A stretch of DNA of 64,000 bases. It comes from a virus. The DNA lies in IMG/VR virus record IMGVR_UViG_3300044974_001280, positions 124,001 to 188,000 of that record. One strand, 5' to 3'. A program made the position numbers and the translations under genes. Shown in pieces: positions 898-44,792 of this stretch. The stretch's first letter is position 1. The number at the start of each line of letters is the position of its first letter. Under the pieces are notes generated by a model. The model saw only the letters and a list, made by a program, of their open reading frames with translations, was not told the DNA's origin and did not search any database.

Positions 898-1452
898 ATG
901 ACTCCCAGATTAAAAAACTTTTCCATGTTTTCTGAGGCAATAAACAGAGAAAGAAGCAGGTTTAGATCCAATTTTGATAAAGAGGACGATTGGAGTAAGT
1001 TCGAAGAAATAGAGAGAAGGATAGAGGATCGATATTCAAGAAAAGAATCGGAAACGGGAATTGGTGAATTTTCAGATTCGGGAGCCAGAGCAAGATTTCA
1101 AGCTATGGCAGAAGATCCGAGTGGAGCTCCGCTAAGATTGGTCCGAATGGGCCTGTCCCTTGTTCAGAAGGTGGCTAAATCTATTGTTGATGTTTTTAAA
1201 ATGCCTTTTAGAGGTGGGGATTCTCTGGAGAGTCTTAAGAGACAAAAGAAAGATATGCTAGAAAAATGGGGTGAAACCATTACAAAAAGTGGCAGAAACA
1301 CAAGAGAAGACTATGAGGATTTCTATAGTAGAGCCTACGATAGTGGCAGAAGAACATTTGGAGATGATTTTGATCTAGATTCTCCCAGCTCTGAAGAAGG
1401 CAGGGTGTATTCAAGTTACATTAAAGGGGCCAGAAGATTTTACGATATTTGA
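898..1452 (+). CDS. Unknown protein with capsid-targeting-like leader
   Basis: I do not recognise the 184-residue body. The first 14 residues (MTPRLKNFSMFSEA) match the recurring N-terminal leader of this window: basic/hydrophobic start, F-x-x-F, then S-E before A. The rest is highly charged (R, E, D, K rich), with a hydrophobic helix in the middle (LVQKVAKSIVDVFKMPF) and an acidic-aromatic C-terminus. The ATG at 898 is preferred over the GTG at 859 because a GATATATA box lies between them and because the leader then sits at the N-terminus. The gene abuts the nucleotidyltransferase gene downstream. A packaged internal protein is the best guess. Confidence 0.6.
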   Translation: MTPRLKNFSMFSEAINRERSRFRSNFDKEDDWSKFEEIERRIEDRYSRKESETGIGEFSDSGARARFQAMAEDPSGAPLRLVRMGLSLVQKVAKSIVDVFKMPFRGGDSLESLKRQKKDMLEKWGETITKSGRNTREDYEDFYSRAYDSGRRTFGDDFDLDSPSSEEGRVYSSYIKGARRFYDI

Positions 1453-1454
1453 GC

Positions 1455-2387
1455 ATGATTTATACCTACACACAATATATGGAATTAAATGAAGGAGGGG
1501 CTGCTATTGGCAGTTCTAGAAAGATCCGAGAGGATGAAGTGGCCAAAACTTTGACCCACTTAGGGGAAGCCCTTTTTCCCTTGCTGGGCGATGGAAAATT
1601 AAACAGGGACTTTTTGCTCATTGGCAGCATTGGAAAAAAAGAAAGTCCAGATGACACTTCCGGGGACGTGGATTTGGGAGTTTCTAAACCCTTCCTGGCC
1701 CAAAAATGGGGTGTTCCTGAATCCAAGGTGTTGGATGTAATGACCGAGAAACTGAAGGACCAACTCCCCGACATTTTGGGTTACAAACCGGAGATCAAAA
1801 TGTTTAAAGGGATCAACATAGTCAGCGTTGAATGGCCCATTGAGGGGAACATCAAGAACGGCACGGTTCAACTTGATCTGATTCCAATTGCGGATATGGA
1901 TTGGGCTAAATTTATTTTTTACTCCCCGGACCAGAGAAAAAAAGAATCCAAGTATAAATCTGCCCACAGGAATTGGCTTTTCCAGGCCATTCTTTCGGCC
2001 TTGAAGGATGTAGATTCCGTTGATAAAGAAGGGCAAATCATGGATTATACTGGGTATGTTCTCAAACTAGGAGATGGCGTTTATAAGAATCGTAAGACCT
2101 ATCGGGGAGCAACAAAAAGACTCTCCCGACCTAAAATTTTAGAAGATAGCACCTTTCTAGTCACCAGGGATCCTCAAAAGATGCTAGATCTACTTTTTGG
2201 TTCTGGTGTTAGACCGAGTGATGTTAAGACCTTCGAGGATGTCTGGTCTTTAATAAAAAAACCGACTTTTATCCATGCCGATAAACTACAATCTATAGTG
2301 GAAGATTTTGTCAGATACTTAGAGAGAACCAATCACGACATTCCTTGGGAAATAAAAAAACTGGTTAGTAATGAACGTTTTCCCTAA
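1455..2387 (+). CDS. Nucleotidyltransferase with capsid-targeting-like leader
   Basis: The protein (310 aa) starts MIYTYTQYMELNE-GGA, a leader ending L-N-E before G, as in T4 capsid-targeting sequences. Around residues 56-75 a GSIGKK...SGDVDLGV segment gives the G-S...D-x-D signature of the DNA polymerase beta/nucleotidyltransferase fold, whose paired aspartates bind Mg-NTP. A later acidic residue in QLDLIPIADMDW could be the third metal ligand. Substrate is unknown (NMP transfer to protein, RNA or a small molecule). The ATG at 1455 is chosen over a TTG at 1449. It overlaps the next gene by 17 nt, indicating an operon. By analogy with T4 Alt, a packaged enzyme that modifies the host at entry is an attractive but unproven reading. 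Confidence 0.65.
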   Translation: MIYTYTQYMELNEGGAAIGSSRKIREDEVAKTLTHLGEALFPLLGDGKLNRDFLLIGSIGKKESPDDTSGDVDLGVSKPFLAQKWGVPESKVLDVMTEKLKDQLPDILGYKPEIKMFKGINIVSVEWPIEGNIKNGTVQLDLIPIADMDWAKFIFYSPDQRKKESKYKSAHRNWLFQAILSALKDVDSVDKEGQIMDYTGYVLKLGDGVYKNRKTYRGATKRLSRPKILEDSTFLVTRDPQKMLDLLFGSGVRPSDVKTFEDVWSLIKKPTFIHADKLQSIVEDFVRYLERTNHDIPWEIKKLVSNERFP

Positions 2388-2802
2388 TCTTTTCTACACC
2401 ACTTTGGATTTCTTGCTGGAAGGAGATGGAATAGAATCCATCTTTAAACACCCCGAAGTCATTTTGTTTAGGACAGTGCTGGGTTTAAATGGTTCTGTCA
2501 TGGCCAATTCAACCGGAGATTACGAAGTTCAGATTGGAGATGAAATTATCTACACGATGGAAAAATCAGTCTACGATTTGATCAATTTTGGTTTTTCTCC
2601 TCCTCCTTTATCCGTTTATGTTCCCTTGCTCTTAATGACCTGGAACTCACCATTACATGATAAATCTAAATTAATTATTGGCAAAATTCTCAATAGTCTT
2701 CTTTTTTTGGAGTCCAGAGGATATGTTGATTTTGAACTTCAAGAATACGGTCCTTTATCTTTTTTTCCAAATTTTCCAACAAGTTTTCCTCCCCATAAAT
2801 AA
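2371..2802 (+). CDS. Unknown protein, possible leader
   Basis: This 143-residue protein is not recognised. Its N-terminus (FYTTLDFLLEGDG) has an aromatic pair and an L-L-E before G, so it may carry a divergent form of the packaging leader, though the spacing is less regular than elsewhere. The body has two hydrophobic stretches and a repeated proline-aromatic pattern (FSPPPLSVYVPLLL) but no obvious transmembrane segment or catalytic motif. The start overlaps the end of the nucleotidyltransferase gene by 17 nt and the ligase gene follows after 8 nt, so it is probably translated from the same transcript. Confidence 0.5.
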   Translation: MNVFPNLFYTTLDFLLEGDGIESIFKHPEVILFRTVLGLNGSVMANSTGDYEVQIGDEIIYTMEKSVYDLINFGFSPPPLSVYVPLLLMTWNSPLHDKSKLIIGKILNSLLFLESRGYVDFELQEYGPLSFFPNFPTSFPPHK

Positions 2803-4799: not shown

Positions 4800-5333
4800 G
4801 TGAAAGTTATTCTTCCTTATTCTCAATTCATTACCCAGCTAAATGAAGCCGATGGGTTTGGAACCTTGCCCTTTCTCTTTAAGAAAGACGGGGATCTATG
4901 TTACTATTTTTTCCAGATAGACAAAGAAAAAGGAGACCAGCAAGGTTATGTTTTTTTGATTGGCAAATACTCCAGATTTGAAAATATGGAGGGTCCAAAA
5001 AATTCTTATGCCGTCATTAATCTCAACCAGATCGAGCCCGAGGTGATCGAAGACATTGCAATTGAGAACACCAAGAATTTACCCGAAGCTAACTCCAATA
5101 AATTTAAACTTAAGGGAGGAGAATTGGCGAGGCTCTACAAGCAGATTGGCAAATGTCTTTTGAATTACTTGGAGAAAAACCCAAAAACAATCAGAATAGT
5201 GGATGAGATGAATCAAAATCTAGTTCTGAATAACTACGAGGAGTACGCTAGATCTATGTTAATTTCGATCCTAGGTGATGAATGGCATTTGCAACCCGGA
5301 TCTAGAAAAGGAGTTTACGTCTTGAATCGCTAG
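4800..5333 (+). CDS. Unknown protein with capsid-targeting-like leader
   Basis: A 177-residue protein of unknown function. The N-terminus MKVILPYSQFITQLNE-ADG is one of the clearest leaders here: aromatic pair Y-x-x-F, then L-N-E directly before A, the T4 prohead protease cleavage consensus. The GTG start fits because the leader begins there and a late-type box sits 17 nt upstream. The body has a soluble alpha/beta character with no catalytic motif that I can name. It stands alone between the ligase fusion and the histone-like gene. Probably a packaged internal protein, processed at residue 16. Confidence 0.6.
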   Translation: MKVILPYSQFITQLNEADGFGTLPFLFKKDGDLCYYFFQIDKEKGDQQGYVFLIGKYSRFENMEGPKNSYAVINLNQIEPEVIEDIAIENTKNLPEANSNKFKLKGGELARLYKQIGKCLLNYLEKNPKTIRIVDEMNQNLVLNNYEEYARSMLISILGDEWHLQPGSRKGVYVLNR

Positions 5334-5649: not shown

Positions 5650-6993
5650 ATGAACTCTATTATTAAATTCTCTGATTATATTTTAGAAGAAGAAATGAGT
5701 CGAAAGGAGAGGAGACTGCAAAGAAGGGAAGAAAGATTAGAAAAAAAACTCGATAAAATCGGAAAAAAAAGAGGAGGGGATTCTCCAGTCCTGGGTGATC
5801 AAGAAGAAAGCCAAAAACGTTTGAGTACGCCCTTTTATCAAATTAAGGGCAAAGAATTACCTATGGAGCAAAAAATCGACATTAACGGTCAAAGTGTTGA
5901 ACCATACGGGATAGCAAACAATGTTATGAATACCTGGATCGAAGAAGTCAAAACTGAAACCCTAGACAACATCGATTCCAAATATAAAGTGGCTATTAAG
6001 GCTCTAATCGAAAGGTCACTCAATAAGATTTTTCCTATAGTGTCTAAGTACTTTATTCCGTCTGTCAAATTTGATGGTAAGCCTATTATTGAAGAAACTA
6101 AAATCGAGCCTAAAGAATTTTGGCTCCAGGTTTGGCCCCAAATCTGGAAAGAAATGAATGCAGTAGAAAGGGGGATTGTTAAAAGTATGACCTCCTTAAG
6201 AGAAGAAACTACCTATGACCAATTGATAGAAATGGTGGGTAAGGCTTTATCGGATGAGGAATTCTCAGGATACAATGAAGTTGTGTCCGAACAATTATCG
6301 AACTTATTGGAACTTTTTGGCTTGGCTTTTTCTACGACTTTCAAAGACAAGGCAGTGGAAGTTTCCCAAGAAATGATGGGAAAATTGGTCACGGATCTAA
6401 ATGCAAAAGGAGCAAAAATCAATTTCAAGTCCTCTCAAAAATCTAAAGGGGGTCAGCAAGAATTGGAAAATGTTGACCTTGGCAAATCATCAAAAGAAGT
6501 TTGGGCCGAAACAATCGTTAAACAAATAGAAGAATTCAGAAAACTTTTAACTTCAGAAGAAGATAATAAAGGAGAAAAAGATCAAAAATATAAAGAAGAA
6601 GAAGAAGTAAAAGATATAAAATTTCCTTCGTCAATCAAAACAAAGGAAGATTTGAAAAAATGGGCTTCCAGTTTAAGCTCCGATCAAAAACAAGTTCTAT
6701 TGGGTGCCTTGGGATTTAGTGAAGTTAAAAAAGAAGACTCAGAAGGAAAGGACTCGGGAGGATCTGGATCCGTCCAGTCAGCAGGCAGCGGAGGAAAAGA
6801 AGTCTTAAAAAGAGGAATGAAGTCTGAGGAGGTCGGTAAACTCCAGGATGCATTGGGCATGACAAATTTAGGAACCCAAAGAACTAATTTTGGTCCTAAA
6901 ACTGAACAGGCTGTTAAGGAATTTCAAAGGAAAAAAGGTTTGGTGGATGATGGAATAGTGGGACCTAAAACTAGAGAGAAACTTGGAATATAA
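5650..6993 (+). CDS. Peptidoglycan-binding-domain protein with capsid-targeting-like leader
   Basis: This 447-aa protein starts MNSIIKFSDYILEEE, an F-x-x-Y leader with I-L-E/L-E-E. Then follow a basic coiled segment (residues 15-45), a helical region (about 60-290), and a low-complexity charged linker with a G/S-rich stretch (about 300-375). The last 65 residues are a PG_binding_1 domain: LKRGMKSEEVGKLQDALG, then FGPKTEQAVKEFQRKKGL and DGIVGPKTREKLG. Such domains bind cell-wall glycan in hydrolases and tail proteins. No hydrolase motif is visible in the rest, so it may be a targeting or structural protein delivered with the virion and anchored to the wall. Confidence 0.7.
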   Translation: MNSIIKFSDYILEEEMSRKERRLQRREERLEKKLDKIGKKRGGDSPVLGDQEESQKRLSTPFYQIKGKELPMEQKIDINGQSVEPYGIANNVMNTWIEEVKTETLDNIDSKYKVAIKALIERSLNKIFPIVSKYFIPSVKFDGKPIIEETKIEPKEFWLQVWPQIWKEMNAVERGIVKSMTSLREETTYDQLIEMVGKALSDEEFSGYNEVVSEQLSNLLELFGLAFSTTFKDKAVEVSQEMMGKLVTDLNAKGAKINFKSSQKSKGGQQELENVDLGKSSKEVWAETIVKQIEEFRKLLTSEEDNKGEKDQKYKEEEEVKDIKFPSSIKTKEDLKKWASSLSSDQKQVLLGALGFSEVKKEDSEGKDSGGSGSVQSAGSGGKEVLKRGMKSEEVGKLQDALGMTNLGTQRTNFGPKTEQAVKEFQRKKGLVDDGIVGPKTREKLGI

Positions 6994-7263: not shown

Positions 7264-7833
7264 ATGACACGTCAAAACCCATTTCAGTCTCGAAAATATC
7301 TCAACGAATCCGATCAAAAATTAAATCGAGATCCGGAGATGACCCACGAGGCTGAAACGGGTTCTTATATTCCTCCCCAGTCTCCAATTGCTATTCAGCC
7401 GGGGGATAAAGGGTTTGAGATAGTGGGAAAAGCCTACAATAAGTGGTTGTGGACATTTCCAGAGTGGAAAAAGAAATCCTCTAAAATCATTAATCCTGCC
7501 GCCAACTGGAATTTGAACAGCAAACCGATGACAGCTGCTCAGATCAAGAAAAAAATGAAGGGACTGTATCTTAAAGAAGGTGCGACGAATTTAGAGTTTT
7601 TGAAAGGAGGCAAATCGGATAAACTGACAATTTTAGATATAGCTCTTAAACACTCCGGTAAAAATTCTTCATCTTTATCAGAAATTCTAGATCATTTAAC
7701 TCAACAGCTAGTGGACGGAGTTTTTGTCGAGATGGAACACACCCAAAGACCACAGCAGGCCAGGGAAATTGCCATGGATCATCTCTACGAGGATCCAAAC
7801 TACTACATCAAACTAAAAAAAATAGAGGGTTAG
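7264..7833 (+). CDS. Unknown protein with DUF5661-like C-terminus
   Basis: This 189-aa protein opens with NPFQSRKYLNE-SDQ, a leader-like segment with L-N-E before S. The C-terminal 35 residues (VEMEHTQRPQQAREIAMDHL, then EDPNYYIKL) follow the E-H-T...A-x-x-I-A-x-D-H-L-x-E-x-P-x-Y-Y pattern of a small domain common in large phages (resembles DUF5661). The middle has a tryptophan-rich patch (KWLWTFPEWKKK) and basic helices. Function is unknown. It lies in a run of small same-strand genes with gaps of 10-45 nt. Confidence 0.5.
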   Translation: MTRQNPFQSRKYLNESDQKLNRDPEMTHEAETGSYIPPQSPIAIQPGDKGFEIVGKAYNKWLWTFPEWKKKSSKIINPAANWNLNSKPMTAAQIKKKMKGLYLKEGATNLEFLKGGKSDKLTILDIALKHSGKNSSSLSEILDHLTQQLVDGVFVEMEHTQRPQQAREIAMDHLYEDPNYYIKLKKIEG

Positions 7834-8634: not shown

Positions 8635-9048
8635 ATGAGATTCCTGCTCGAATATGAAGACTACGATCCTCGGGAAGAATATCTAACCGATACCCGTAGG
8701 AGTCTTTCTCTTGGAGGCATCAGGAAATCTGACATTTATCAAAAAATTCTGGATCTGGGCTTTGTTGAGCAGCATTCTCTTCAACAGGGTCTCAACAACA
8801 CCCTTAAATTTTTTCGTCCTGATCAGGAATCTTTAGAGCCAGGTGAGGAGAAAATCTTCTATACAATCCATCCCACAGGCATTGTTAGAAGATACAATCC
8901 GAAAGTTGACGACACAATTCCCGAGGGATTTGGAAATGAAATCAAAAAATTTCCGGGGCCTTTTACTAAACCGGCCGACTATCTCAGAGCCCTTAATTAC
9001 CTGTATTATTATTTAAAAAGGAAAGAAATGAGAGGAAACTTTAGATAG
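8635..9048 (+). CDS. Unknown protein
   Basis: This 137-aa protein starts MRFLLEYEDYDPREEY, which has the Y-x-x-Y pattern of the packaging leader but no clean L-x-E cleavage site. The body contains an F-F-R-P...FYTIHPTGIVRRY segment, suggesting a small beta sheet, and ends with a tyrosine-rich helix (LRALNYLYYYLKRK). The ATG at 8635 is used because the longer frame (from 8590) would overlap the previous gene by over 40 nt. Function unknown. Confidence 0.45.
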   Translation: MRFLLEYEDYDPREEYLTDTRRSLSLGGIRKSDIYQKILDLGFVEQHSLQQGLNNTLKFFRPDQESLEPGEEKIFYTIHPTGIVRRYNPKVDDTIPEGFGNEIKKFPGPFTKPADYLRALNYLYYYLKRKEMRGNFR

Positions 9049-12433: not shown

Positions 12434-12760
12434 CTATTTACTTTCCGTTTTGGCCTTGCCAGATAGAGTCTCATGAATTCTCTGTTTTACGTACTTTAGC
12501 ACTTTCTTAGAATCTTTGTGGTCTTTTGAAAGCATTTTTTGAAATTCTTCTTCCTCTGCTAACTCGTCTAGATACGAATACAAGTCAGTTGTGTTGTAGA
12601 GATCGTCAACTACCTGGGGCATCTGAGTGTAGGCTGGACGATAATTTCTGGAGTTAACGTTGTCTTTATACCAATCACCTGGCACTACCACACTCCCTGG
12701 AGCGAAGGCGCTCCAGCTTTCGGATAAAAATTTTTTGAAACTTTTAATACGGGGGGTCAT
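12434..12760 (-). CDS. Unknown small protein with capsid-targeting-like leader
   Basis: A 108-aa protein on the minus strand. It starts MTPRIKSFKKFLSE-SW, a textbook leader: basic, F-x-x-F-L, and L-S-E before S. The remaining 94 residues are not recognised; they contain a proline/aspartate/tyrosine-rich middle and an acidic then basic helical C-terminus. The start at 12760 is chosen because a late-type box lies 5 nt upstream; a longer frame would run into the divergent polymerase gene. It converges on the LamG gene with 4 nt between stops. Confidence 0.65.
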   Translation of the reverse strand: MTPRIKSFKKFLSESWSAFAPGSVVVPGDWYKDNVNSRNYRPAYTQMPQVVDDLYNTTDLYSYLDELAEEEEFQKMLSKDHKDSKKVLKYVKQRIHETLSGKAKTESK

Positions 12761-17864: not shown

Positions 17865-18497
17865 ATGGATTTAGTTAAGAATTTCTCAGATTTTTTAATA
17901 GAAAGAGAATTGCCGGATTCTCAAGGAAAAATTCTAGTTGTGATGGGACCTCCGGGATCAGGTAAAGGAACTTTTTCCGAAAAACTGGCAGATAGGCAAG
18001 GCTTCCACCACATTTCAACCGGAGAATTGCTCAGGAAATCAAAAAACCCGGAGATCAAGAAAAAAGTTGAACGGGGTGATTTCATCGACGATCAGACAGT
18101 TGTAAAGATGATCCGGAGGGAACTGAAGAAAATTGATCCTGATGATGGGATCATTATTGACGGATTCCCCCGGACCGTTAAACAAGCCTCTCTGTTAGAT
18201 TCTTTGCTCGGAAAAATGGGCTTGGGCCTGAGCCACACCATCTATCTGGATATAGACGAAGAAACGGCCAAAGGCAGAATTACTGCCAGGGCGGAAAGAG
18301 AAGACCGGAAGGACGACAAAGATCCAGAGGTGGTGGCTAAAAGATTCAGAGACTATGAAGAAAAAACTGCACCCCTGATTGATCTCTACACAAAAAACAG
18401 AAAACTGAAAAAATATAATGCCGCCAAAGGTAGCGAGAGCGTTTACAAGAAGATCGTGAAGGCCTTAGAACTAAACCGGACCCCTGATTCAGAATAA
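17865..18497 (+). CDS. adk: Adenylate kinase with capsid-targeting-like leader
   Basis: The first 18 residues (MDLVKNFSDFLIERELPD) are a leader of the packaging type (F-x-x-F-L-I-E). A complete adenylate kinase follows: VVMGPPGSGKGTFSEKLA (P-loop), HHISTGELLR (AMP site), DGFPRTVKQA (D-G-F-P-R), then an RITARAEREDRKDDK lid that is short and lacks zinc cysteines, as in short-lid kinases. It converts ATP plus AMP to two ADP. Total 210 aa. Unlike nrdAB it has its own late box 4 nt upstream, so it looks like a virion protein rather than an early metabolic enzyme. A non-AMP nucleotide specificity cannot be excluded. Confidence 0.9.
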   Translation: MDLVKNFSDFLIERELPDSQGKILVVMGPPGSGKGTFSEKLADRQGFHHISTGELLRKSKNPEIKKKVERGDFIDDQTVVKMIRRELKKIDPDDGIIIDGFPRTVKQASLLDSLLGKMGLGLSHTIYLDIDEETAKGRITARAEREDRKDDKDPEVVAKRFRDYEEKTAPLIDLYTKNRKLKKYNAAKGSESVYKKIVKALELNRTPDSE

Positions 18498-24156: not shown

Positions 24157-24939
24157 CTAGACAATCCCGTCCTTCCAGGGATCGACGTAGCCCAATTTGG
24201 TCTTTAGGGCCTTGATGACCCGAAGCTGCTCAGGACTGAGTCTCTGTTCGATCTTCTGTCTCTGCTCCTCCCAGCCTGGTTCATCCCAGAGGTCTGCCAG
24301 CTGCAGGAGCACCTGGCCGTCTTTCTTCAGATCTCCCTTCAGTTTCTGCAGCCAGAAGCCGGCATCGAACAGGATCACAATCAGGCTCCGGGCTTTGCTA
24401 TTTTTTTTGGCCAGAATCTCGGTCCAGCCCTGGGGATTCCATTTCCCACTTCGGACTTCGAAAGAGTCGCAGTAGAAACCCTCCCTCACCGTCTGGGGTG
24501 CCCCGGCCAGGGTCGTCAGCTGGTTTCTGAAACAGTAGAAATCCCCATTTACCGTCTGGGGTGCCCCGACCAGGGAAGTCAGCTGGTTGCCTTGACAGTA
24601 GAAATCCCCACCCACCGTCTGGGGTGCCCCGGCCAGGGTCTTCAGCTGGTTGCCGCCACAGAAGAAACTCCCACCCACCGTCTGGGGTGCCCCGGCCAGG
24701 GTCGTCAGCTGGTTTCTGAAACACCAGAAATCCCCACTGACATGTCCGAACGAGATTCCCCGCAGAGACTTCAGTCTTTTGTAACTACAGTCAAAATCTC
24801 CTTTCACATCGACCAGACCGGTCTGCTGGTTGACCGACCAGGTCCCTTGCGTGTATTTGGTCAGGAAAGTCTTTTGCTTTTGGGTCAGGCCTGAAGTCTT
24901 CCGGGCTTCGAACAGGGAAAAGGATTGGAGGTGTTTCAC
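24157..24939 (-). CDS. Leucine-rich-repeat protein with leader, paralogue 2 (4 repeats)
   Basis: A 260-aa paralogue with the same leader (MKHLQSFSLFEA-RK), the same basic domain and the same C-terminal domain as its neighbours, but only four G-A-P-Q repeats. Near identity in the ends and difference in repeat number point to recent duplication with gain or loss of 63-bp units. A few codons are missing in the C-terminal domain relative to paralogue 1 (RSLIVILFDAGF instead of RSLIVTLPMFDAGF). GTG start, with the box 4 nt upstream. Same unknown role: a packaged binding protein is the best inference. Confidence 0.75.
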   Translation of the reverse strand: MKHLQSFSLFEARKTSGLTQKQKTFLTKYTQGTWSVNQQTGLVDVKGDFDCSYKRLKSLRGISFGHVSGDFWCFRNQLTTLAGAPQTVGGSFFCGGNQLKTLAGAPQTVGGDFYCQGNQLTSLVGAPQTVNGDFYCFRNQLTTLAGAPQTVREGFYCDSFEVRSGKWNPQGWTEILAKKNSKARSLIVILFDAGFWLQKLKGDLKKDGQVLLQLADLWDEPGWEEQRQKIEQRLSPEQLRVIKALKTKLGYVDPWKDGIV

Positions 24940-24943: not shown

Positions 24944-24951
24944 TATATATC
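24944..24951 (-). promoter_or_regulatory. Putative late promoter box, 4 nt from the start codon
   Basis: GATATATA on the minus strand, then AGGC and the GTG at 24939. It lies within the 13-nt gap to the next paralogue. Confidence 0.65.
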
Positions 24952-24952
24952 T

Positions 24953-27835: not shown

Positions 27836-27846
27836 AACCTTCTATC

Positions 27847-30849: not shown

Positions 30850-31920
30850 ATGAAATCATCTAAAGTTCTGAATTTTCAAGATTTTCTCGGTCTGTCAACG
30901 GACAGAATAACAGAGAATGAAAAAATTCAGGATATTTTAAAAGATGCCATTGGGGAAGTTGCCCCACTGATTCCCAAAACAGGGGGAGAAAGCGGTGGTC
31001 TAAAAGAACCAATTATCAAGTCAGGTAAAGATTTACAGAATATGTTTTGGTCTACCAGTATGGGCAAGAGATTTTTAGAAAAAACGGATGAAGATTATCG
31101 AAAGCAGATGTCCGAGAAAGGTCTCCTAGACAGCAAATATTTATCTGATGAAGGAACTGGATCAAGAAATGCACCTTCCGGCAATATCTCAAAGGAAAAA
31201 GAATTGCAAGATATGCTCGATAGAATGGGAATGGGAAAAAGTGGAGATATAGATTTCGGTAAGTTACCAGACGGAGGATCTTACGAATTTAGTGAGGCCA
31301 AAGAAATGGATTGGAGTGATCTCAGCCAACTATTGAAAAAAGAAGGAATCAAGTACCCGTCCGATAAATACACTCTTGTTGCTCTGAGAAACAACCTGGT
31401 GGTGAAGAAAAAAATGCCCAATCGTTTCACCGATGCACTTTTCTTACTAGGTCCCGACTCCAATAAAACAGTCCAATTTTATCCAGCCACCACCACACCT
31501 GGGCCAGCCTTTATGGTAAAAAGTTATCGGAATTTAATGGCTAGTAGGGGCAATGCTTCCGGCATTAACCCCAAGGGGCTAGCCATCATTCAACCGGGTG
31601 TTTATACCTATAAATTGGGTAAGCACAAAGGGAAAGAGGATGCATTAATCCAGGCAGAACCAGTCACGGTTCATAGATACACGCCAGTCGATTCTGAAAG
31701 TCAGGCAACATTTAAAACTTTTTCACCGGGCAATGAAGAAAAAGGTGAATTTGGAATCAACATTCATCAAGGAGCTGATATAGATACCGTCGATAACATT
31801 AGCAGTGGCTGTCTTGCCACCCAGTACAAAAAAGACATGAAAGAGATCATCAAGAAATTGAAAGATGCCGGCCAAGATCAGATCGAATTGGTTCTTTTAG
31901 ATCTAGATTCAATTAATTAA
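30850..31920 (+). CDS. L,D-transpeptidase-like protein with capsid-targeting-like leader
   Basis: A 356-aa protein. The leader is KVLNFQDFLGLSTDRITE-NE: F-x-x-F-L and I-T-E before N. The middle (residues 25-180) is charged and helical. The C-terminal domain (about 190-340) resembles YkuD-type L,D-transpeptidases: IIQPGVYTYKLGKHKG, then GINIHQGADIDTVDNISSGC with the H...S-x-G-C active-site pattern (His and Cys separated by 15 residues). Such enzymes cross-link peptidoglycan or attach proteins to it. The usual final R after the cysteine is replaced (S-G-C-L-A). It may act on the wall at DNA entry. Confidence 0.6.
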   Translation: MKSSKVLNFQDFLGLSTDRITENEKIQDILKDAIGEVAPLIPKTGGESGGLKEPIIKSGKDLQNMFWSTSMGKRFLEKTDEDYRKQMSEKGLLDSKYLSDEGTGSRNAPSGNISKEKELQDMLDRMGMGKSGDIDFGKLPDGGSYEFSEAKEMDWSDLSQLLKKEGIKYPSDKYTLVALRNNLVVKKKMPNRFTDALFLLGPDSNKTVQFYPATTTPGPAFMVKSYRNLMASRGNASGINPKGLAIIQPGVYTYKLGKHKGKEDALIQAEPVTVHRYTPVDSESQATFKTFSPGNEEKGEFGINIHQGADIDTVDNISSGCLATQYKKDMKEIIKKLKDAGQDQIELVLLDLDSIN

Positions 31921-34044: not shown

Positions 34045-34806
34045 ATGAAAATTAGAGTAACCAGCACGAGTAATTTCATCCTTTTTCTCAAGAAGCTAAA
34101 AGTCGTCGACCGAAGCGTCTTGCTAGAATTAACAGAAACGGATCTTTTTTGTAAAGTTCACACCCCCGATAAATCTGTCATGAAATTCTCCAGAATTCCC
34201 ACTAATCTTATTTTTGATTCCTTAACTGAATTTTCAGCCCTTAAGTGTGACAGAATTAAAATAGGTCTGCTGGATATTACCAGACTGATGGATAGCTTCC
34301 GCTATTTTAGGTCGGAGGAGGAAGTTTTTTTACACCTGGAAATTGCCACTATTGATGATGAGTGTGTCGCAACGGAATTAAAATTGATCTCCCCCTCTCT
34401 GAAAATAAGGATCAAATGTGCTGATCTATCTTTGCTTTCTTATGTGGAGGATTCCATTTCTGATCTGGTTCAAAGTCAAGAAGATGCCTTGGCCAGTTTC
34501 AAATTTTTTGTTTCTGATTTCTCTTCTGTTTCTTCCCTCTGTGGAATGGAGTCCAACTCCGAAGAGCTGCTAAACTTCTCACTTCACTCGGACTACGTCA
34601 GAGTTATCGGAGAATCTTTTGACTATAAATTGACTATTGGAAGCTCTGACATAGATTGTGCCAAGCCCTTAGATGCTTCGATTTACAAATCACATTTGAA
34701 CTATGTAGATCCTGAATCATGCATTTGCTTCTTCCATGAGAACAGAATAGTCTTTGCCTCTGATCAAACCCCTACTTCCACCGCTATCGGCATTATCGAA
34801 AAGTAG
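34045..34806 (+). CDS. Sliding-clamp-like protein (possible gp45)
   Basis: A 253-aa protein of mixed strands with an internal two-fold look, as in T4 gp45 (228 aa). Support is weak at sequence level: an IGLLDITRLMDSFRYF segment, then KLISPSLKIRIKCADLSLLS, in the place where gp45 has its domain-linking strands, and a final strand CICFFHENRIVFASD. Its place among topoisomerase and polymerase genes fits. A T4-like phage needs a clamp for replication, and in T4 the clamp also activates late transcription. The ATG at 34045 is preferred over one at 33988 that overlaps the previous gene. It overlaps the convergent gene by 14 nt. Confidence 0.45.
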   Translation: MKIRVTSTSNFILFLKKLKVVDRSVLLELTETDLFCKVHTPDKSVMKFSRIPTNLIFDSLTEFSALKCDRIKIGLLDITRLMDSFRYFRSEEEVFLHLEIATIDDECVATELKLISPSLKIRIKCADLSLLSYVEDSISDLVQSQEDALASFKFFVSDFSSVSSLCGMESNSEELLNFSLHSDYVRVIGESFDYKLTIGSSDIDCAKPLDASIYKSHLNYVDPESCICFFHENRIVFASDQTPTSTAIGIIEK

Positions 34807-35608
34807 AGAAATATCCCCTCATATTGCTCAGAATTTTCACTTTTTTCTTCGTATTGAGATCTAGAACTTTTTCTAGCTCCCGTCTGAAATTGGCAACTTC
34901 TGGATATTCCCAAAACATAGCTAGATCCACCATGCGATCTGGATTATCGACAATATAATTCTTCAAGAAATTTACATCTAAAAAAGGAAGGGTTGAAATC
35001 AGAGCTTCAATACGGGTAAAATTTTTGGATTTAGCTTCTTCTAAGGCTTGTATCCAACCTAGATAATTCCATTTACCTTCATTAAAATCGACCAAATCGG
35101 AGTAAAAACCTTTCTTCAATTTAACTGGAGCTCCTACCAAACTGGTTAAGGGATTACCAAAGGCCAAGTACTGCCCACCAACTTCAACAGGACCCCCAAC
35201 TAGATCTTTAAGATTGTTGTTGTTGCAAGAGAAATTCTTCCCTATTTTAGTAGGTCCTCCCTGCAAGGAGGTCAAAGAGTTATCGCTACAGTTGAAACTT
35301 CCTTGAACTTCTTGTGGAAATCCCTCTAGATCTTGAAAAAAATTTCTAGTGCAATAAAAAACCCCGGTCACCTTGCCAAATCCGATCCCCTTGAAAATAT
35401 CAATTTCCCGGGTCTGATTAAAAGGTTCAGAAAGATAAAAATTGCCTGTGATGTCCACCCTGTCAGTTTTCCTGTTCATTTCCCAGGTGCCAACAACGTG
35501 TTTATTTAAGATTTCTGTTTGCTTTCTGGACAATCTTGTGCCAGCTGCCCGATCTCCTTTTTTTGCCTCGAAAATTTTAAAACTTTGAATGGGGTTCTCC
35601 TTTTGCAT
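34793..35608 (-). CDS. Leucine-rich-repeat protein with leader, divergent paralogue 4
   Basis: A 271-aa protein with the same plan as the tandem repeat proteins: leader MQKENPIQSFKIFEA-KK with I-F-E before A, basic domain (SRKQTEILNKHVVGTWEMN), about four degenerate repeats (LQGGPTKIGKNFSCNNNN, LVGAPVKLKKGFYSD), and a C-terminal domain (WNYLGWIQALEEA). Sequence identity is low, so it split from the others long ago. The ATG at 35608 is preferred to the TTG at 35611 because it lies 4 nt from the box. It is divergent from the polymerase C-terminal gene. Confidence 0.7.
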   Translation of the reverse strand: MQKENPIQSFKIFEAKKGDRAAGTRLSRKQTEILNKHVVGTWEMNRKTDRVDITGNFYLSEPFNQTREIDIFKGIGFGKVTGVFYCTRNFFQDLEGFPQEVQGSFNCSDNSLTSLQGGPTKIGKNFSCNNNNLKDLVGGPVEVGGQYLAFGNPLTSLVGAPVKLKKGFYSDLVDFNEGKWNYLGWIQALEEAKSKNFTRIEALISTLPFLDVNFLKNYIVDNPDRMVDLAMFWEYPEVANFRRELEKVLDLNTKKKVKILSNMRGYFSTFR

Positions 35609-37301: not shown

Positions 37302-38768
37302 ATGAATTCACTACCCGCCGTGTTAAATTTTTGCAACTTCTTGAACGAATCTAAAGAAGAAAAAGGAGTTGAACTCCTGATCCTCTCAGGCACGGTAAAA
37401 CCCAGTCCGACGTCCAAATCCTTCCTGGAGGAATGCCAAAAAAGGGGTATCCCTTGTTACGTTGTCAACATCAACAATGTGCAGCTTGAAAAAATCTATA
37501 ATGGACATCTACTCCGGGAGACCTCAGGGGACAAAAGAGAAATTTTCATAAATCCTGATGTGACCGCTATTATTCCTAGACGAGGGGTTATTTCCAATTC
37601 TCTGACCAAACAGATCATGAGAGAATTAGAAGCATCCCGTTATTTCTGTGTCAATTCTCTGGAATCTATCGAGGTGTGTGAGAGTAAATTCTTAACCTCA
37701 AAGGTGTTGGAAGAGAATGAACTTCCAGTTCCCAGATATGCCCTGGTGAACGGGGAAGAAAATCTGGATACTGCCTTGGAACAAATAGGTGGTCAGTTTC
37801 CTGTAGTAATGAAGTTGCTCTCGGGCACTCAGGGCATTGGGGTTTCAATTGTTGATTCTTACGCCTCTCTGAAATCTGTGTATCAAACGATTGCCAAATT
37901 GGATCCCGAAAAGGAAATTCTTATTCAGGAAAAAATTGACTCGAACTTTGATTTGAGAATTCAGGTCATCCTCAAAAGATTTGACCCTTTAATCACCAAA
38001 CCAAGCAATTGCATTATTCTTGGATCCATGAAAAGAGAAGCAGTAAAAAAGGATTTCAGAACCAATTACTCTCTAGGAGGTAAAGTTTCTGCCTATAATA
38101 TAGATGATAAAATTGCCGATTTAGCCTGTCGGGCTGCTAATTCTGTCGGTAGCCATTGGTGCGGGGTAGACATCATGATCGATAAAAAAACGAAAGAGCC
38201 GTATATTCTGGAGGTTAATTCCTCGCCTGGAACAGAAGGCATCTCTCAGGCCATAGGAAGACCCATTGTGGGGGACGTCATCGATTATGTCATCAATAAA
38301 AAGAATTGGATCTACTCTAGGATGGAGGTTGGTTATTTAGAGACGATTGAGATCCCAGAGATAGGAAAGCTTGTTGCCAAATTCGACACTGGAAATGGCT
38401 CCAGTGCCTCATCGATTCAGGCAGATGAAACGAAAGAAGTAGGAAATCAGCTGAAGTGGAAAATCGGGGGCAAAGAATTTACCAGCGACATTGTTGGTTA
38501 CACCGATACGGAAGTGGGTAGAGATAAAAGCAAGAGACCTATTATTCTGCTAGACGTCATGCTCAACGGGGTAAAGATCTCGGATGTAAAAGTTGCTCCC
38601 ACGGATAGGGTCCAAAAAAGCACTCCATTCCTGGCCAGCAGAGGCCTGATGAAAAAAATGGGGGTAATGGTTAATCCACACAAAGCCTTTGTCGTCACCG
38701 AGGAGATTAAAGGTTATAGACCTTTGAAAGCCAAAGGCAAACCCCATCTTGGCATTGAATTTTCTTAA
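37302..38768 (+). CDS. RimK-like ATP-grasp ligase fused to RimB-like aspartic protease, with leader
   Basis: A 488-aa protein. Residues 1-18 (SLPAVLNFCNFLNE-SK) form a leader with F-x-x-F and L-N-E before S. Residues about 20-330 are a RimK-type ATP-grasp: PRYALVNGEENLDTALEQIG, VVMKLLSGTQGIGVSIV, ILIQEKID, and GVDIMIDKKTKEPYILEVNS then SPGTEGI. Residues about 345-488 are a retropepsin-like domain: GKLVAKFDTGNGSSASSIQA carries the D-T-G catalytic motif, as in RimB/ATP-dependent zinc-protease-type proteins. In bacteria RimK adds glutamates to ribosomal protein S6 and RimB trims them. Both activities in one packaged protein is unusual; the target is unknown. Confidence 0.8.
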   Translation: MNSLPAVLNFCNFLNESKEEKGVELLILSGTVKPSPTSKSFLEECQKRGIPCYVVNINNVQLEKIYNGHLLRETSGDKREIFINPDVTAIIPRRGVISNSLTKQIMRELEASRYFCVNSLESIEVCESKFLTSKVLEENELPVPRYALVNGEENLDTALEQIGGQFPVVMKLLSGTQGIGVSIVDSYASLKSVYQTIAKLDPEKEILIQEKIDSNFDLRIQVILKRFDPLITKPSNCIILGSMKREAVKKDFRTNYSLGGKVSAYNIDDKIADLACRAANSVGSHWCGVDIMIDKKTKEPYILEVNSSPGTEGISQAIGRPIVGDVIDYVINKKNWIYSRMEVGYLETIEIPEIGKLVAKFDTGNGSSASSIQADETKEVGNQLKWKIGGKEFTSDIVGYTDTEVGRDKSKRPIILLDVMLNGVKISDVKVAPTDRVQKSTPFLASRGLMKKMGVMVNPHKAFVVTEEIKGYRPLKAKGKPHLGIEFS

Positions 38769-39516: not shown

Positions 39517-39843
39517 ATGTATAAGAAAAAAATTCTAGAATTCGACGATTTTGTTTCAAATCTGTCTCTCAGTGAAGTCCAACAGGAAGAAATCAAAGAT
39601 TTCGTTAAAAAATACGAAAAATACATGAATTTTCATGACACGGGAGATTTTGAATCTTCTTTAGATGAATTAGTTAAAGATGTGATGACCCACTTTAACT
39701 TTCCCTCTTCTAAAAAAGAAGACGTTCAGAATTTCATTCAGAGTCTTCAAACTCTGTCTGATGGTATGTCAGTTATTATGTCCCCGGGTCCTGAAATTAT
39801 CTACCGGACCAATCCCGATATGACCCAAACAATTGTTTACTAA
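39517..39843 (+). CDS. Unknown protein with capsid-targeting-like leader
   Basis: A 108-aa protein starting MYKKKILEFDDFVSNLSLSE-V: a basic start, F-x-x-F-V, then L-S-E. The ATG at 39517 is chosen over a TTG at 39487 because the late box lies between them. The rest is acidic and helical (VQQEEIKDFVKKYEKYMNFH) with a Y-E-K-Y segment that recalls the EEYEKC motif but lacks the cysteine. The function is unknown. It is followed after 10 nt by thioredoxin. Confidence 0.6.
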   Translation: MYKKKILEFDDFVSNLSLSEVQQEEIKDFVKKYEKYMNFHDTGDFESSLDELVKDVMTHFNFPSSKKEDVQNFIQSLQTLSDGMSVIMSPGPEIIYRTNPDMTQTIVY

Positions 39844-40163: not shown

Positions 40164-40694
40164 ATGAAAAATATTATCTCTTACGACAATTTTACTCCAG
40201 AATCTTCTGATCCTTTACAGGAGGGATGGAAAGATGCCGGCTATGGCTACAAAAGGTACCAACCCCCAGGCATGTTACAAACCATGAAAAGAAAAACAAA
40301 AAGCCTGTTTGGTATTGAATCAAGCAAGGATCGGGAAAGATTAGGACAAATTTACAAAGAAATTGAAAATCCTCCCTATCAAGGTTATATCTCCAACGTC
40401 AGAGACATCAGTGGAGAATATCCGGCTTTAATTTGCCATCTGGGACCTAGAAATCTGTCTGTTATGTGCGATCCACAAGACCCTTCCATCAGATGGGGAG
40501 GAAGTGAATTGGATTTGGCGGATATCGATGATGAATGCCAAAGACTTTATCGTTTCATCAAAAAGCACATGGACCTGACTGAAAATACACATTCTCCAAC
40601 GGACAACACCATCAAAGATCCTAAAAACATGTACTCTTCCTACCCAGGTGTAGGTGGGGTGAGTAACCGAACAGTCAACCGTTCTCTGATTTAA
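40164..40694 (+). CDS. Unknown protein with capsid-targeting-like leader
   Basis: A 176-aa protein. The N-terminus MKNIISYDNFTPESSDPLQE-GW has the Y-x-x-F pair and L-Q-E before G, the exact T4 protease consensus L-x-E/G. A basic segment (YKRYQPPGMLQTMKRKTKSL) and a domain with paired cysteines (ALICHLGPRNLSVMCDP) follow. The function is unknown. It follows thioredoxin after 13 nt and converges with a holin-like gene. Confidence 0.6.
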   Translation: MKNIISYDNFTPESSDPLQEGWKDAGYGYKRYQPPGMLQTMKRKTKSLFGIESSKDRERLGQIYKEIENPPYQGYISNVRDISGEYPALICHLGPRNLSVMCDPQDPSIRWGGSELDLADIDDECQRLYRFIKKHMDLTENTHSPTDNTIKDPKNMYSSYPGVGGVSNRTVNRSLI

Positions 40695-41305: not shown

Positions 41306-42322
41306 TTATTTTATGTAATCAGAGATTTCCATCATTTTATCAAAATCTCCCTCCTCGTCGGCCTTTCTGTATTCCCTTTTTAGTTCTTCTTGGGACATAC
41401 TAGCGTAATCTTTGGTGATCTGTGATTCTGAACCACTTGGGGATTTGGCAGCTTGTCTGGCTTTCCATGCTGCTAATTTCCTTTCATACTCAGCCTTATC
41501 GGCTCTATCCTGCTCCAGCCAGGCATCTCTGGCTTCCACCCTCTCAATGACTACATCAATCAATTCATCGATTTTTTTTCTGGCTTCTGGAGTTTTTCTA
41601 AAAATTCCTGTCATCAGAGGTAAAAATTCAGCCGTGGGTAAATTCTCTGGATCCACCATATATTTCCAAAGTTCCTCTCTCAAATTAGAATATTTGATGA
41701 CCTTGGGATTCTCAAAGATAAATTTTCTTAGATCTTCGGCCATTTGAGGACCATATCTCCATTCGTCCGGTTCGTCTATCAATCCGAATTGATCTTCAAT
41801 AGCCTTGGCTAGTTCAGGGTCATCTGGTACTGCAGACATTGACATAACCCTCCAAATTCCTTTGACTGCCTCATGAATCAGCATGCTGAAATCCGCTCCT
41901 AAAGCTTTAATTACTGGTTTAGAATCCGGTCGAGGTCTGTTTTTTTGTCTTGTTTTTCTAAAGCTGTCATCCAACATCCTCCTTATTTCTGGTCCCTGTA
42001 CTAGTTTAATTTCAAGCTTTATGTCGTAGTAATCAATGAGGGGCTTGTATAGATCTGTAATTATTTCTCTTGCTAGATCTTCTAGCTCCTTTTCATACCC
42101 TCTAGAAAGTTGCTGGGATCTCGAAAAATTTCCCATCAACTGGCTAACGGCTTGGCTGATTCCTTGCGGGGATCCCTCGGGAGTTTTCCCGATGCCGAGT
42201 TTTTCTTTAGCTCTTCTCGTGACATCCTCTAGGTAGTCGGGGGGAATACTCACCATGTCTTTAACCCTAATAGCCTCATTAAAGGATGCAAAATTCTTTG
42301 TGAAATTGGCTTTTAGTGACAT
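41306..42322 (-). CDS. Unknown protein with capsid-targeting-like leader
   Basis: A 338-aa protein starting MSLKANFTKNFASFNE-AIR: aromatic pair and F-N-E before A. It is mostly helical and highly charged: SRGYEKELEDLAREIITDLY, KPVIKALGADFSMLIHEAVK, and a long coiled segment of A/K/R/E near the end, then EELKREYRKADEEGDFDKMM, which resembles a UVR-type hairpin. No catalytic motif is recognised. The stop of the Clp gene lies 4 nt upstream, so the two are co-transcribed. Confidence 0.6.
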   Translation of the reverse strand: MSLKANFTKNFASFNEAIRVKDMVSIPPDYLEDVTRRAKEKLGIGKTPEGSPQGISQAVSQLMGNFSRSQQLSRGYEKELEDLAREIITDLYKPLIDYYDIKLEIKLVQGPEIRRMLDDSFRKTRQKNRPRPDSKPVIKALGADFSMLIHEAVKGIWRVMSMSAVPDDPELAKAIEDQFGLIDEPDEWRYGPQMAEDLRKFIFENPKVIKYSNLREELWKYMVDPENLPTAEFLPLMTGIFRKTPEARKKIDELIDVVIERVEARDAWLEQDRADKAEYERKLAAWKARQAAKSPSGSESQITKDYASMSQEELKREYRKADEEGDFDKMMEISDYIK

Positions 42323-42326
42323 ATTC

Positions 42327-44792
42327 TTAGTAAAATGGTTTTCTTTTTTTGAGTTCTGATATGTACCTTTTGATCACATCCATCTCTGAAGCTTTTTTCT
42401 TTATTGCTTGGGGTCCAGGAGCATGAGAAGGAACTTTAATTCGTGGTGCAATTGACGGATGAGGAGTTATTCTTCGGACCGGTTCTGCATCTGGATCAAA
42501 ATCCTCATCCTCATCTTCATCCTCACTGGGTGTAGGTTTAGGAGTAGGCTTAGGCTGTGGTTTAGGCGTAGGTTTAGGCAGTGGTTTAGGCAGTGGTTTA
42601 GGCAAAGGAGCTGGTTTTCCCTTTTCCTCTTCTTTCTCCCTTTCTGTTTCCGCCTCGTCTAATCTATCGCTAAATTCTGAAAAACTATTGATTCTTCTAG
42701 GACTTGTAGATTCGAACAAAGAAAAACTTTTGTGGATTTTTCTGAGTCTAGATTCAGATAACTCTGAAATTTTCTTTCCGTTAATGACTAACTCATCTGC
42801 CAAGGAATCGTAATCAATTTTGAGGTTGGATCCTTCCTCAATCTCTTCCTCGATTATAAAATTGGCTAGAGGGTCCTTGATATATTTCTCCACTGCTCTT
42901 CTAAGGGGTCTAGCCCCATATTCAGGGTCAAATCCGTGTTTAAGTAACAACTTGTAAACCGAAGTTCCCCAAGTCAGATTAATGTCTTGGGTATTTTTAA
43001 TCCTATCTGCCACCTTCTCGAGCTCTTTTTCTGCAATCTTTTTTATTGATTCTTGGTCTATTGACTGAAAAATAACAATATCATCTATTCTATTAATAAA
43101 TTCGGGCGAAAACTCTTTTTTGATCGCTGCATCGACTCTTGCTTTGATTTCCTCAGGTGATTCTGCTCCAGTCTGTTTTGTTTCATCTTCTGGTTCATCT
43201 TTAACCAAAAAACCAATCGCTTTTCTGGGTTCCTTTGATTTAACCTTTTTAGATCCTGTTTTTGATCCCACATTAGAAGTCATGATAATAACACAGTTTG
43301 TAAAGTCAACCGTTCTCCCTTGCCCGTCCGTCATCCTTCCATCTTCTAGCACCCCTAGCAGGGATTGTATAACTTGAGGGTTTGCTTTTTCGATCTCATC
43401 TAGCAAAATTACCGAATAAGGGTTTCTTCTGACTTGCTCTGTTAGTTTGCCTCCTTCCGAATAACCTACATAACCGGGAGGTGATCCAAACAATTTAGAT
43501 CCTGTATGAGCCTCCGAATATTCATTCATATCAATCCTAATCAATTTAGATTCCCTAGATCCAAAAAGCTCCTCAGCCAATTTTTTCACCAAATAGGTTT
43601 TACCTGTCCCAGTAGGGCCCACGAATAAAAATACCCCTTCAGGTCTATTAGGGTCTTTAAGACCCGACCTGTTTCTTTTAATTGTTCTAACAACGGTCTC
43701 TACCGCCTCGTCTTGACCGATAACTTTTGATTTCAGTCTGCTTGACATTCCTTTTAGGATTGCCTTACTGCCCTTTTTCATCGTTTCAACAGGAATCCCT
43801 GTTTTATCTGCCACTAGTTTTTCCACCATTTCTTTAGTGACGGTAATTTTAGGTCCCATTTGACCTTTCGCAGCCATTTTTTCAAGCCGACTCTCTATCT
43901 TTTCTTTTTCATCTGATAGATCTGCAGCAGCATCATAGTCACCTTCTGCCGTCTTTTGCCTGATCCGGTCTAGGAGTTCTAAATTTTTCTTTTCTAGATT
44001 CGCAACCTCCGCATCCGGGGCATTTTTAATGCGAATTCGTGCACCGGATTCGTCCATCAAGTCGATAGCTTTATCTGGCAAAAATCGGTCTTTAATATAC
44101 TGCTTAGATAGTTTATAAAAGGATTCTAAGGCTTCTGGTGAATAATTAACATGATGCCAATCCCCATATTTTTCTTGGATTTCTCTAAGTATTTCCATGC
44201 ATTCCTCGTAGGTAGGCTCTTCAACTTTGATCGGTTGAAATCTTCTTTCCATGGCTCCGTCTTTCTCAATAGTTTGACCATATTCACTATAAGTGGAACC
44301 ACCGATCATATGAAGTTTGGCTTTAGCCAAAAAGGGTTTGAGTTCATCGTAACTTGCTTTAGGTAGAGAATGGAGTTCGTCCACAAAAATAATCAAGTTA
44401 TCTTCCTCAATTTCACGGGCCAAAAGGGGTAAATAACCTCCATTAACTATTTTTTTAAATGCCCAGGTCAAATCTATTAACTTTTTCCCCTTTAAAAAAC
44501 CGGGACATTTATCGCTTGCCATTAAAAGAGCAAGCTTATCCACAATAGCGGTTTTTCCAACGCCCGGCTCTCCAACCAAAACTGGATTATCCTTGGTTTT
44601 CCTGGCCAGAATGCGAAGCAACTGTTCCAATTCCTTATCCCTTCCAATTACTTCATTTATCTCTCCCTCCTTCGCTGCTTTGGTCATATCCTCACCGTAT
44701 GCTTGCCAAAGCTTTTCATCATCTGGGACTTTTAGTTCTTCCTCAGATTCGAATAATCTTAATTTTTTGTAATTCTTGGATATTCTTTTCAT
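42327..44792 (-). CDS. ClpC-like double AAA+ unfoldase with leader and unusual C-terminal extension
   Basis: An 821-aa protein. The N-terminus KNYKKLRLFE-SEEE replaces the Clp N-domain with a leader-like segment. AAA-1 has VLVGEPGVGKTAIVDKLALL and IIFVDELHSL; a UVR-like insert (TAEGDYDAAADLSDEKEKIE) follows; AAA-2 has FLFVGPTGTGKTYLVKKLAE, VILLDEIEKANP and ARPLRRAVEKYI. RKAIGFLVKDEPE sits where ClpA/C/X carry the I-G-F/L-G-F loop that docks on ClpP. After AAA-2 come two more leader-like motifs (KSFSLFE-ST and NSFSEFSDRLDE-AE), a P-K-P repeat linker, an acidic run and a basic tail. No protease gene is in the window, so it may use host ClpP. Confidence 0.85.
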   Translation of the reverse strand: MKRISKNYKKLRLFESEEELKVPDDEKLWQAYGEDMTKAAKEGEINEVIGRDKELEQLLRILARKTKDNPVLVGEPGVGKTAIVDKLALLMASDKCPGFLKGKKLIDLTWAFKKIVNGGYLPLLAREIEEDNLIIFVDELHSLPKASYDELKPFLAKAKLHMIGGSTYSEYGQTIEKDGAMERRFQPIKVEEPTYEECMEILREIQEKYGDWHHVNYSPEALESFYKLSKQYIKDRFLPDKAIDLMDESGARIRIKNAPDAEVANLEKKNLELLDRIRQKTAEGDYDAAADLSDEKEKIESRLEKMAAKGQMGPKITVTKEMVEKLVADKTGIPVETMKKGSKAILKGMSSRLKSKVIGQDEAVETVVRTIKRNRSGLKDPNRPEGVFLFVGPTGTGKTYLVKKLAEELFGSRESKLIRIDMNEYSEAHTGSKLFGSPPGYVGYSEGGKLTEQVRRNPYSVILLDEIEKANPQVIQSLLGVLEDGRMTDGQGRTVDFTNCVIIMTSNVGSKTGSKKVKSKEPRKAIGFLVKDEPEDETKQTGAESPEEIKARVDAAIKKEFSPEFINRIDDIVIFQSIDQESIKKIAEKELEKVADRIKNTQDINLTWGTSVYKLLLKHGFDPEYGARPLRRAVEKYIKDPLANFIIEEEIEEGSNLKIDYDSLADELVINGKKISELSESRLRKIHKSFSLFESTSPRRINSFSEFSDRLDEAETEREKEEEKGKPAPLPKPLPKPLPKPTPKPQPKPTPKPTPSEDEDEDEDFDPDAEPVRRITPHPSIAPRIKVPSHAPGPQAIKKKASEMDVIKRYISELKKRKPFY

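Follow-up and report, generated by a model that had tools for sequence, protein, structure and literature searches.

Phage T4 has three tagged internal proteins, and at least 10 have been reported across the T-even phages (PMC12373910). In the ten-residue leader of IPIII, targeting depends mainly on residues 4 and 7 (Y4 and F7) and processing on residues 8 and 10 (I8 and E10) (PMC9026906); in MKTYQEFIAE+A, where the plus sign here and below precedes the residues behind the leader, the aromatic pair and the I-x-E occupy these positions. In this study, we analysed a window of 64,000 bases (bases 124001-188000 of the 230,445-base virus record IMGVR_UViG_3300044974_001280, a 230-kb phage with genome label G000) and describe in it an N-terminal leader of this kind on otherwise unrelated proteins. 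The best explanation of the whole, which we regard as very likely, is that the leader acts as a T4-type capsid-targeting sequence and that the tagged cargo is packaged, cleaved and delivered. Since the same removable, scaffold-like label is found on dozens of unrelated proteins, each particle of this phage and of its giant relatives probably holds a large load of proteins that is delivered along with the DNA.

The system resembles T4 IPI-IPIII and gp21 in its N-terminal leader of 10-20 residues, the spacing of the aromatic pair, an [IL]xE-type site, an S77 protease and the joining of unrelated proteins by the leader alone. Unlike T4, these phages have dozens of leader genes per genome, many encoding enzymes, and a scaffold that is fused to the protease and built of tandem motif copies, none of which are seen in T4 gp22. 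The ejection proteins of SPN3US and phiKZ are comparable in their related prohead protease, cleavage after glutamate and large load of head proteins (PMC5694885), both the cargo and the cleavage here being predicted. Their propeptides, however, mostly exceed 100 residues and in SPN3US carry an A-x-E site, only one being of T4 length (PMC5694885), whereas the leaders described here span ~10-25 residues and end in [LI]xE-type sites rather than A-x-E or S-x-E. The Tenacibaculum phages PTm1 and pT24 carry, by annotation, protease and scaffold in one open reading frame (ORF) and have a related capsid protein, but they lack ISYSEYLAE repeats and, like Sphingomonas phage PAU, have few leaders of this dialect. 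Several PAU proteins, including gp152, which is annotated as scaffolding, begin with MKTLxxLYEA or a variant of it, which may represent a further leader dialect. In Yersinia phage YerA41, a RimK-RimB fusion bears a shared leader and is annotated as structural after liquid chromatography-mass spectrometry (LC-MS); the YerA41 genome is smaller and its leader dialect is [LM]Nx[KR]FE+A. The leader receives no mention in the passages of PMC7354516 examined, and a search that left most subscription journals and bioRxiv outside its reach returned no paper on a cargo this large or varied, on a tag-repeat scaffold, or on the tag in this clade.

The leader, its conservation and the upstream box

All 18 N-termini listed by the initial annotation exist and translate as described. 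It had claimed an F/Y-x-x-F/Y pair for each of them, and the pair is present within the first ~16 residues of 17; in 44792(-), MKRISKNYKKLRLFE+S, a Y-x-x-L alone stands ahead of LFE, with no full aromatic pair. An L/I/F-x-E site lies behind the pair in most of them. The pattern reads [ILV]-x-[FY]-x-x-[FY], then [LIVMF]-x-E, and the proposed likeness to T4 IPIII holds, as the aromatic pair and the [LI]xE correspond to those residues of T4 to which genetics has assigned targeting and processing. Starts were the first ATG or a box-supported start, except for the YerA41 structural list, where annotated starts were used; Shine-Dalgarno strength was rejected as a start chooser, as it picked wrong starts, the genes having no usable Shine-Dalgarno sequence.

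The shared leader is present in this phage far above chance. In a sample of 180 of its genes, FxxF occurs in the first ~20 residues of 46, against 18.3+-3.8 in shuffled sequences and 18.1+-3.5 in internal segments, and the aromatic pair together with an L-x-E-type site is found at 25 N-termini (5.7+-2.2 in shuffles, 7.8+-2.3 in internal segments). A larger sample of 277 genes, covering ~97% of the genome read as stretches, contains 28 such N-termini against 8.4+-2.8 in shuffles. With ~8 matches expected by chance, the weak isolated ones at 2811, 34045, 36993 and 50321 are not to be believed; these four were also absent from the initial list. That a leader model would pick out these genes rather than random phage genes was borne out by an independent score matrix trained solely on the leaders of another phage, LR756500, which scores six genes of our phage at 8 or above (0.30 expected) and 11 at 4 or above (1.6 expected). 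The same matrix shows no excess above chance in crAss001 and SPO1, both without an S77 match, and the T4 internal proteins are recovered by the same leader scan. The strict regular expression [ILVM]x[FYW]xx[FYW][ILVM]xE is too narrow for counting cargo (two N-termini in this phage); with the scaffold excluded and four genomes pooled, its matches are strongly N-terminal, the exact motif outside the scaffold repeats being ~16 times denser at N-termini (12 in 19,020 positions) than elsewhere (15 in ~372,000). Window genes for polymerase, reductase, topoisomerase, DnaJ and thioredoxin have neither the leader nor the upstream box described below. Leader genes missing from the initial list were found in the window at 2371, 7264 and 8635 and outside it, in genome coordinates, at 48184, 55360, 56104, 57041, 62258, 63020, ~65335, 119543 and 188965.

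The leader extends to related phages. Counts against shuffles are 46 versus 13.1 in G001 (373 kb), 29 versus 7.7 in G002 (250 kb), 43 versus 20 in LR756500 (462 kb) and 60 versus 20.8 in the 400 kb scanned of LR745206 (635 kb), and the leader/scaffold system reaches phages of 635-735 kb. The possibility that the bS21 phages (PMC9723584) form the parent clade was rejected, S21 having turned up in just 1 of the 7 genomes. The leader-bearing set of our phage comprises adenylate kinase, RimK-RimB, a Clp ATPase, lysozyme, a peptidoglycan-binding protein, leucine-rich-repeat (LRR)-like proteins and uncharacterised ones; in the relatives it includes CHAP and SLT lytic domains, an OmpA-type protein, LRR proteins, an enzyme of the poly(A) polymerase/CCA-adding type, a polynucleotide 3'-phosphatase and a metallopeptidase-VWA protein.

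Conservation falls on the residues of the motif. RimK-RimB retains L-x-[FY]-x-x-[FY]-[LI]-N-E+[AS] over 26 distinct IMG/VR sequences (36 records), with F/Y, F/Y, L/I, N, E and the following A/S each present in 26 of 26, while the positions between and around them vary, their entropy reaching 2.9 bits; leader and box are kept together in all 36 orthologue records. The leaders of 1455, 4800, 17865 and 39517 have diverged in two distant relatives with the aromatic pair retained, and a glutamate site ([LIMVF]xE-type) is also retained in the relatives of the first three, among others. The conserved cores of adenylate kinase and Clp begin behind the leader, which is thus an added extension in these proteins. 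Exact T4-like spacing from pair to site is found in RimK-RimB, adenylate kinase, 5650 and 12760, and other leaders have it at a different distance.

Most leader genes are preceded, 9-32 nucleotides (nt) upstream, by the box GATATATA, which is likewise found in front of the protease gene and of several genes for the tail and head. Boxed leader genes of the window are 898, 4800, 5650, 12760(-), 17865, 24142(-), 24939(-), 25936(-), 30850, 35608(-), 37302 and 39517. In the association test the box accompanies 11 of 17 leader genes and 6 of 69 others (p=4e-6), and across three genomes the Fisher p values are 9e-6, 3e-8 and 3e-4. GATATATA is probably the late promoter of the clade. The spacings from box to start form two groups, ~12-15 nt and 23-32 nt; could the shorter one mark near-leaderless mRNAs?

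Protease, capsid and scaffold repeats

A gp21-like protease, which had been expected elsewhere in the genome, is encoded at G000 51565-51891 (S77 family, E 5.5e-10, above the Pfam cut-off). The domain also exceeds the cut-off in five of six relatives tested and is present in T4, pT24, PTm1, PAU and LR756500. The capsid protein is homologous to those of T4-like phages, and every major capsid protein start listed with its N-terminus has a putative propeptide ending in YCHYHSLNE+SAGAY, with a conserved LNE+S. Two small families of core genes adjoining the capsid gene begin with FxxW..LNE+A or FxEFxLNE+A, their leaders ending in LNE+A or LFE+A.

The protease ORF (G000 51463-53493, outside the window) runs on into ~14 tandem repeats of 14 residues with the consensus ISYSEYLAENLDKG (I-x-Y-S-E-Y-L-A-E-N-L-D-x-x). 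Every repeat holds I-x-Y-x-E-Y-L-A-E or a close variant, which is the leader motif, so that the leader has the look of a single repeat of the scaffold and may mimic it. Homologues in the clade share this layout, in degenerate form in LR756500, and phages LR745206 and LR756501-4, of 635-735 kb, have related repeats. When a matrix built from the 14 repeats was applied to 249 T4 genes, the two internal proteins beginning MKTYQEFIAEA came out on top, and among the genes of our phage 5650 and adenylate kinase rank first. Alignment of the scaffold against solved structures gave no match.

By its annotation, the RimK-RimB fusion links a leader to the virion of another phage. In Yersinia phages YerA41 and GN1 it is annotated as 'structural protein', and in YerA41, for which PMC7354516 reports 63 proteins by LC-MS of purified particles, it begins MNTLNQSPARRLLNKFE+AADEK (leader LLNKFE+AA). 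This KFE leader is found on seven YerA41 ORFs, of which six are annotated structural; the association gives P=3e-4 with 42 of 213 coding sequences labelled and P=4e-3 with the paper's count (63 of 201), both values being optimistic since the pattern was chosen after the structural list had been viewed. YerA41 also encodes an S77 protease domain in gene 202c (~136338-137096, E 1.5e-8), which the record labels merely 'structural protein, very weak hit on RNAse'. The ribonucleotide reductase alpha of YerA41 (26340-28613) is recorded as being in the phage particle and has no KFE leader; it may reflect a second packaging route or a contaminant. In Pelagibacter phage Mosig, RimK-RimB begins MQVQPFKNYLEE+A, a T4-type leader. 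Together, these leaders mean that a single enzyme is tagged in the local dialect in each of three phage groups unrelated to one another. In bacteria, ribosomal protein S6 receives glutamates from RimK, and RimB belongs to the same control system (PMC11957791, PMC7343187). An early effect of the phage enzyme on host translation is therefore plausible by analogy.

A proposed route into the head and its alternatives

We propose that, late in infection, tagged proteins would be made from GATATATA promoters alongside the head genes. The leader would then bind the assembling prohead core, most likely as one extra scaffold unit, the core protein being the gp21-like protease fused to the ~14 leader-motif repeats. 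Once the capsid closes, the protease would cut behind glutamate in the scaffold repeats, the capsid propeptide, the core proteins and the cargo leaders, which would dissolve the core and free mature enzymes within the head; these would enter the next host along with the DNA. The scaffold would thus be an array of the targeting motif of which each cargo protein carries one copy, a single protease specificity both dissolving the core and releasing the cargo. We lean, by a modest degree, towards this scaffold mimicry combined with the injection of dozens of enzymes, including a RimK-RimB that may modify the host ribosome, across widespread phages of 220-735 kb.

Several points weigh against the proposal. 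Packaging and cleavage in this phage are predictions from sequence. No clean site stands at the T4 spacing in 22126, 30850, 39517 and 44792, and the Clp leader is the weakest of all, its G001 homologue having no leader. The scaffold-repeat matrix enriches the phage's own N-termini only modestly (three genes at 10 or above, 0.5 expected), and the AlphaFold2 (AF2) model of the scaffold is helical and uninformative (predicted local distance difference test, pLDDT, 44), which leaves the docking idea without structural support. As to YerA41, apart from the optimistic P values, its leader is of a different dialect and its 'structural' labels are those of the sequence record.

The tagged proteins might instead enter the prohead core solely as components for its assembly, to be destroyed or retained in the head and not delivered active. 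In line with this alternative, the motif does recur in the scaffold repeats, and the core proteins adjoining the capsid gene do bear the leader; however, adenylate kinase, RimK, Clp and lysozyme are conserved catalytic enzymes with intact cores and no obvious role in assembly, and in T4, internal proteins that bear this tag enter the host by injection and are active there (PMC12373910). We therefore consider it improbable. Still less probable is that the leader is an N-terminal docking tag for another destination, such as the membrane, the replication compartment or the tail, with only a superficial likeness to T4. Short aromatic motifs are generally known to serve many docking purposes, and the binding of the leader here is a predicted one, but this would leave aside that the motif recurs in the scaffold repeats and core proteins, that the glutamate is followed by A, S or G, that an S77 protease is present, that the box is shared with head genes and that the YerA41 proteins are annotated as virion components. 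Chance and paralogy, with the count inflated by the frequency of aromatic N-termini and by the tandem triplication of one gene (24142, 24939 and 25936), could account for individual weak members, as ~8 of the 28 simple-motif matches are expected by chance, but are refuted for the whole set by the excess in several related phages, the held-out model, orthologue conservation limited to the motif and the box association.

If delivery by this route is correct, widespread phages of 220-735 kb, some among the largest known, inject dozens of enzymes at the start of infection. From the leader one could read which of the many uncharacterised proteins encoded by huge phages end up in the particle and are probably the first to reach the host, and candidate anti-defence and takeover proteins could be listed from their genes alone. 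The tandem-tag scaffold provides a specific and testable candidate for the binding partner of the capsid-targeting sequence in T4, and it would explain the joint release of cargo and clearing of the core by cleavage after glutamate. As a modular element, the tag could also be used to fill very large capsids with foreign proteins.

Leader genes of the window

Positions are those of the window, and box positions are relative to the start codon.

898..1452, forward: leader gene, 184 aa, MTPRLKNFSMFSE+AINRE; GATATATA box at -26; no Pfam match
1455..2387, forward: leader gene, 310 aa, possible pol-beta-type nucleotidyltransferase, MIYTYTQYMELNE+GGAAI
2371..2802, forward: additional leader candidate, 143 aa, weaker, no box, MNVFPNLFYTTLDFLLE+GDG
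4800..5333, forward: leader gene, 177 aa, MKVILPYSQFITQLNE+ADGFG; box at -25
5650..6993, forward: leader gene, 447 aa, endolysin-like with C-terminal peptidoglycan-binding domain, MNSIIKFSDYILE+EEM; box at -23
7264..7833, forward: additional leader candidate, 189 aa, DUF5661 (2.3e-10), MTRQNPFQSRKYLNE+SDQ
8635..9048, forward: additional leader gene, 137 aa, MRFLLEYEDYDPREEYL
12434..12760, reverse: leader gene, 108 aa, start at 12760, MTPRIKSFKKFLSE+SWSAF; GATATATA box 13 nt upstream
17865..18497, forward: adenylate kinase extended by 22 residues at the N-terminus, MDLVKNFSDFLIE+RELPDSQG; box at -12
21554..22117, reverse: leader gene, 187 aa, phrog_7595, MKILNFGEFRDQISE+NLQ
22126..23007, reverse: phage lysozyme, 293 aa, MKEKIRRIQNFRDFSNL; GTATATATA upstream
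23039..24142, reverse: LRR-like repeat protein, tandem paralogue 1, weak LRR, MKHLQSFSLFE+ARK; box at -13
24157..24939, reverse: LRR-like repeat protein, tandem paralogue 2, MKHLQSFSLFE+ARK; box at -12
24953..25936, reverse: LRR-like repeat protein, tandem paralogue 3, MKHLQSFSLFE+ARK; box at -12
30850..31920, forward: leader gene, 356 aa, phrog_3000, MKSSKVLNFQDFLGLSTDRITE+NEK; box at -24
34793..35608, reverse: leader gene, 271 aa, MQKENPIQSFKIFE+AKK; box at -12
37302..38768, forward: RimK ATP-grasp and RimB-like protease fusion, 488 aa, MNSLPAVLNFCNFLNE+SKEE; RimK 7e-33
39517..39843, forward: leader gene, 108 aa, MYKKKILEFDDFVSNLSLSE; box at -15
40164..40694, forward: leader gene, 176 aa, MKNIISYDNFTPESSDPLQE+GWK; LR756500-model score 8.6
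41306..42322, reverse: leader gene, 338 aa, MSLKANFTKNFASFNE+AIR
42327..44792, reverse: ClpC/ClpB-type AAA+ ATPase without N-domain, 821 aa, MKRISKNYKKLRLFE+SEE; AATATATA at -29

Among the enzymes named by the initial annotation, adenylate kinase, RimK, the Clp ATPase and lysozyme are supported by Pfam or PDB matches. The ADK domain of 17865 (1.9e-36) starts at residue 26, and residue 2 of PDB 4jlo aligns at residue 23; AAA_2 matches 44792(-) at 7.9e-59, its ClpC core beginning at residue 31-32, and Phage_lysozyme covers residues 145-285 of 22126..23007 (1.6e-06). The RimB part of the fusion gives weak matches alone (Pfam E 0.0066; PDB 9g59 E 4e-4), as does the nucleotidyltransferase, for which the AF2 model of 1455 (pLDDT 57) finds OAS/Cid1/NF45 as best Foldseek matches at E 0.03-0.1 and none below E 0.001. 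The L,D-transpeptidase-like protein was left unconfirmed; 5650 has instead a peptidoglycan-binding domain (PG_binding_1, 2.6e-12; endolysins in PHROG) and is the best match in this phage to both the scaffold-repeat and the LR756500 models.

Orthologues show how the leaders vary. They read FNNFVILLE+GG and FSIFSKLFE+GG for 1455 in G001 and G002, with the aromatic pair and E+GG kept; TFGQFVSNMNE+SDGFG and NFNDFRFSVNE+SDGFG for 4800; FNEFLNE+RELPD, FNQFLNE+RELPD and FYGFLLE+REIPD for adenylate kinase; and MIKSFKEKLEE+AS and MIKSFQDRLNE+AS for 42322(-). Relatives of 8635 in G001 and G002 begin MRNIKSFKDYNPNDEY and MKHVVDFEEYDPSDEY, each with a box, orthologues of 39517 begin MKKILEFEDFLEN and MRLLIEFDDYLED, and the boxed G001 orthologue of 22117(-) begins MKYITTYESMSYTQRNQSISE+GLS. 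The gene at 12760(-), hidden under the DNA-polymerase ORF, looks real. The three tandem LRR-like paralogues (23039-25936, reverse) have an identical leader, MKHLQSFSLFEARK, and near-identical upstream sequence; LRR proteins of LR756500 likewise bear the leader.

From ~45859 to 58700 runs a long series of genes that are glycosyltransferase- or methyltransferase-like by sequence, some of them mutually similar, with no convincing leaders and one boxed gene only (48636). The protein of this gene (48636-49223) has a signal-peptide-like N-terminus; it is conserved together with the GATATATA box in G001 and G002 and may act late on the host envelope.

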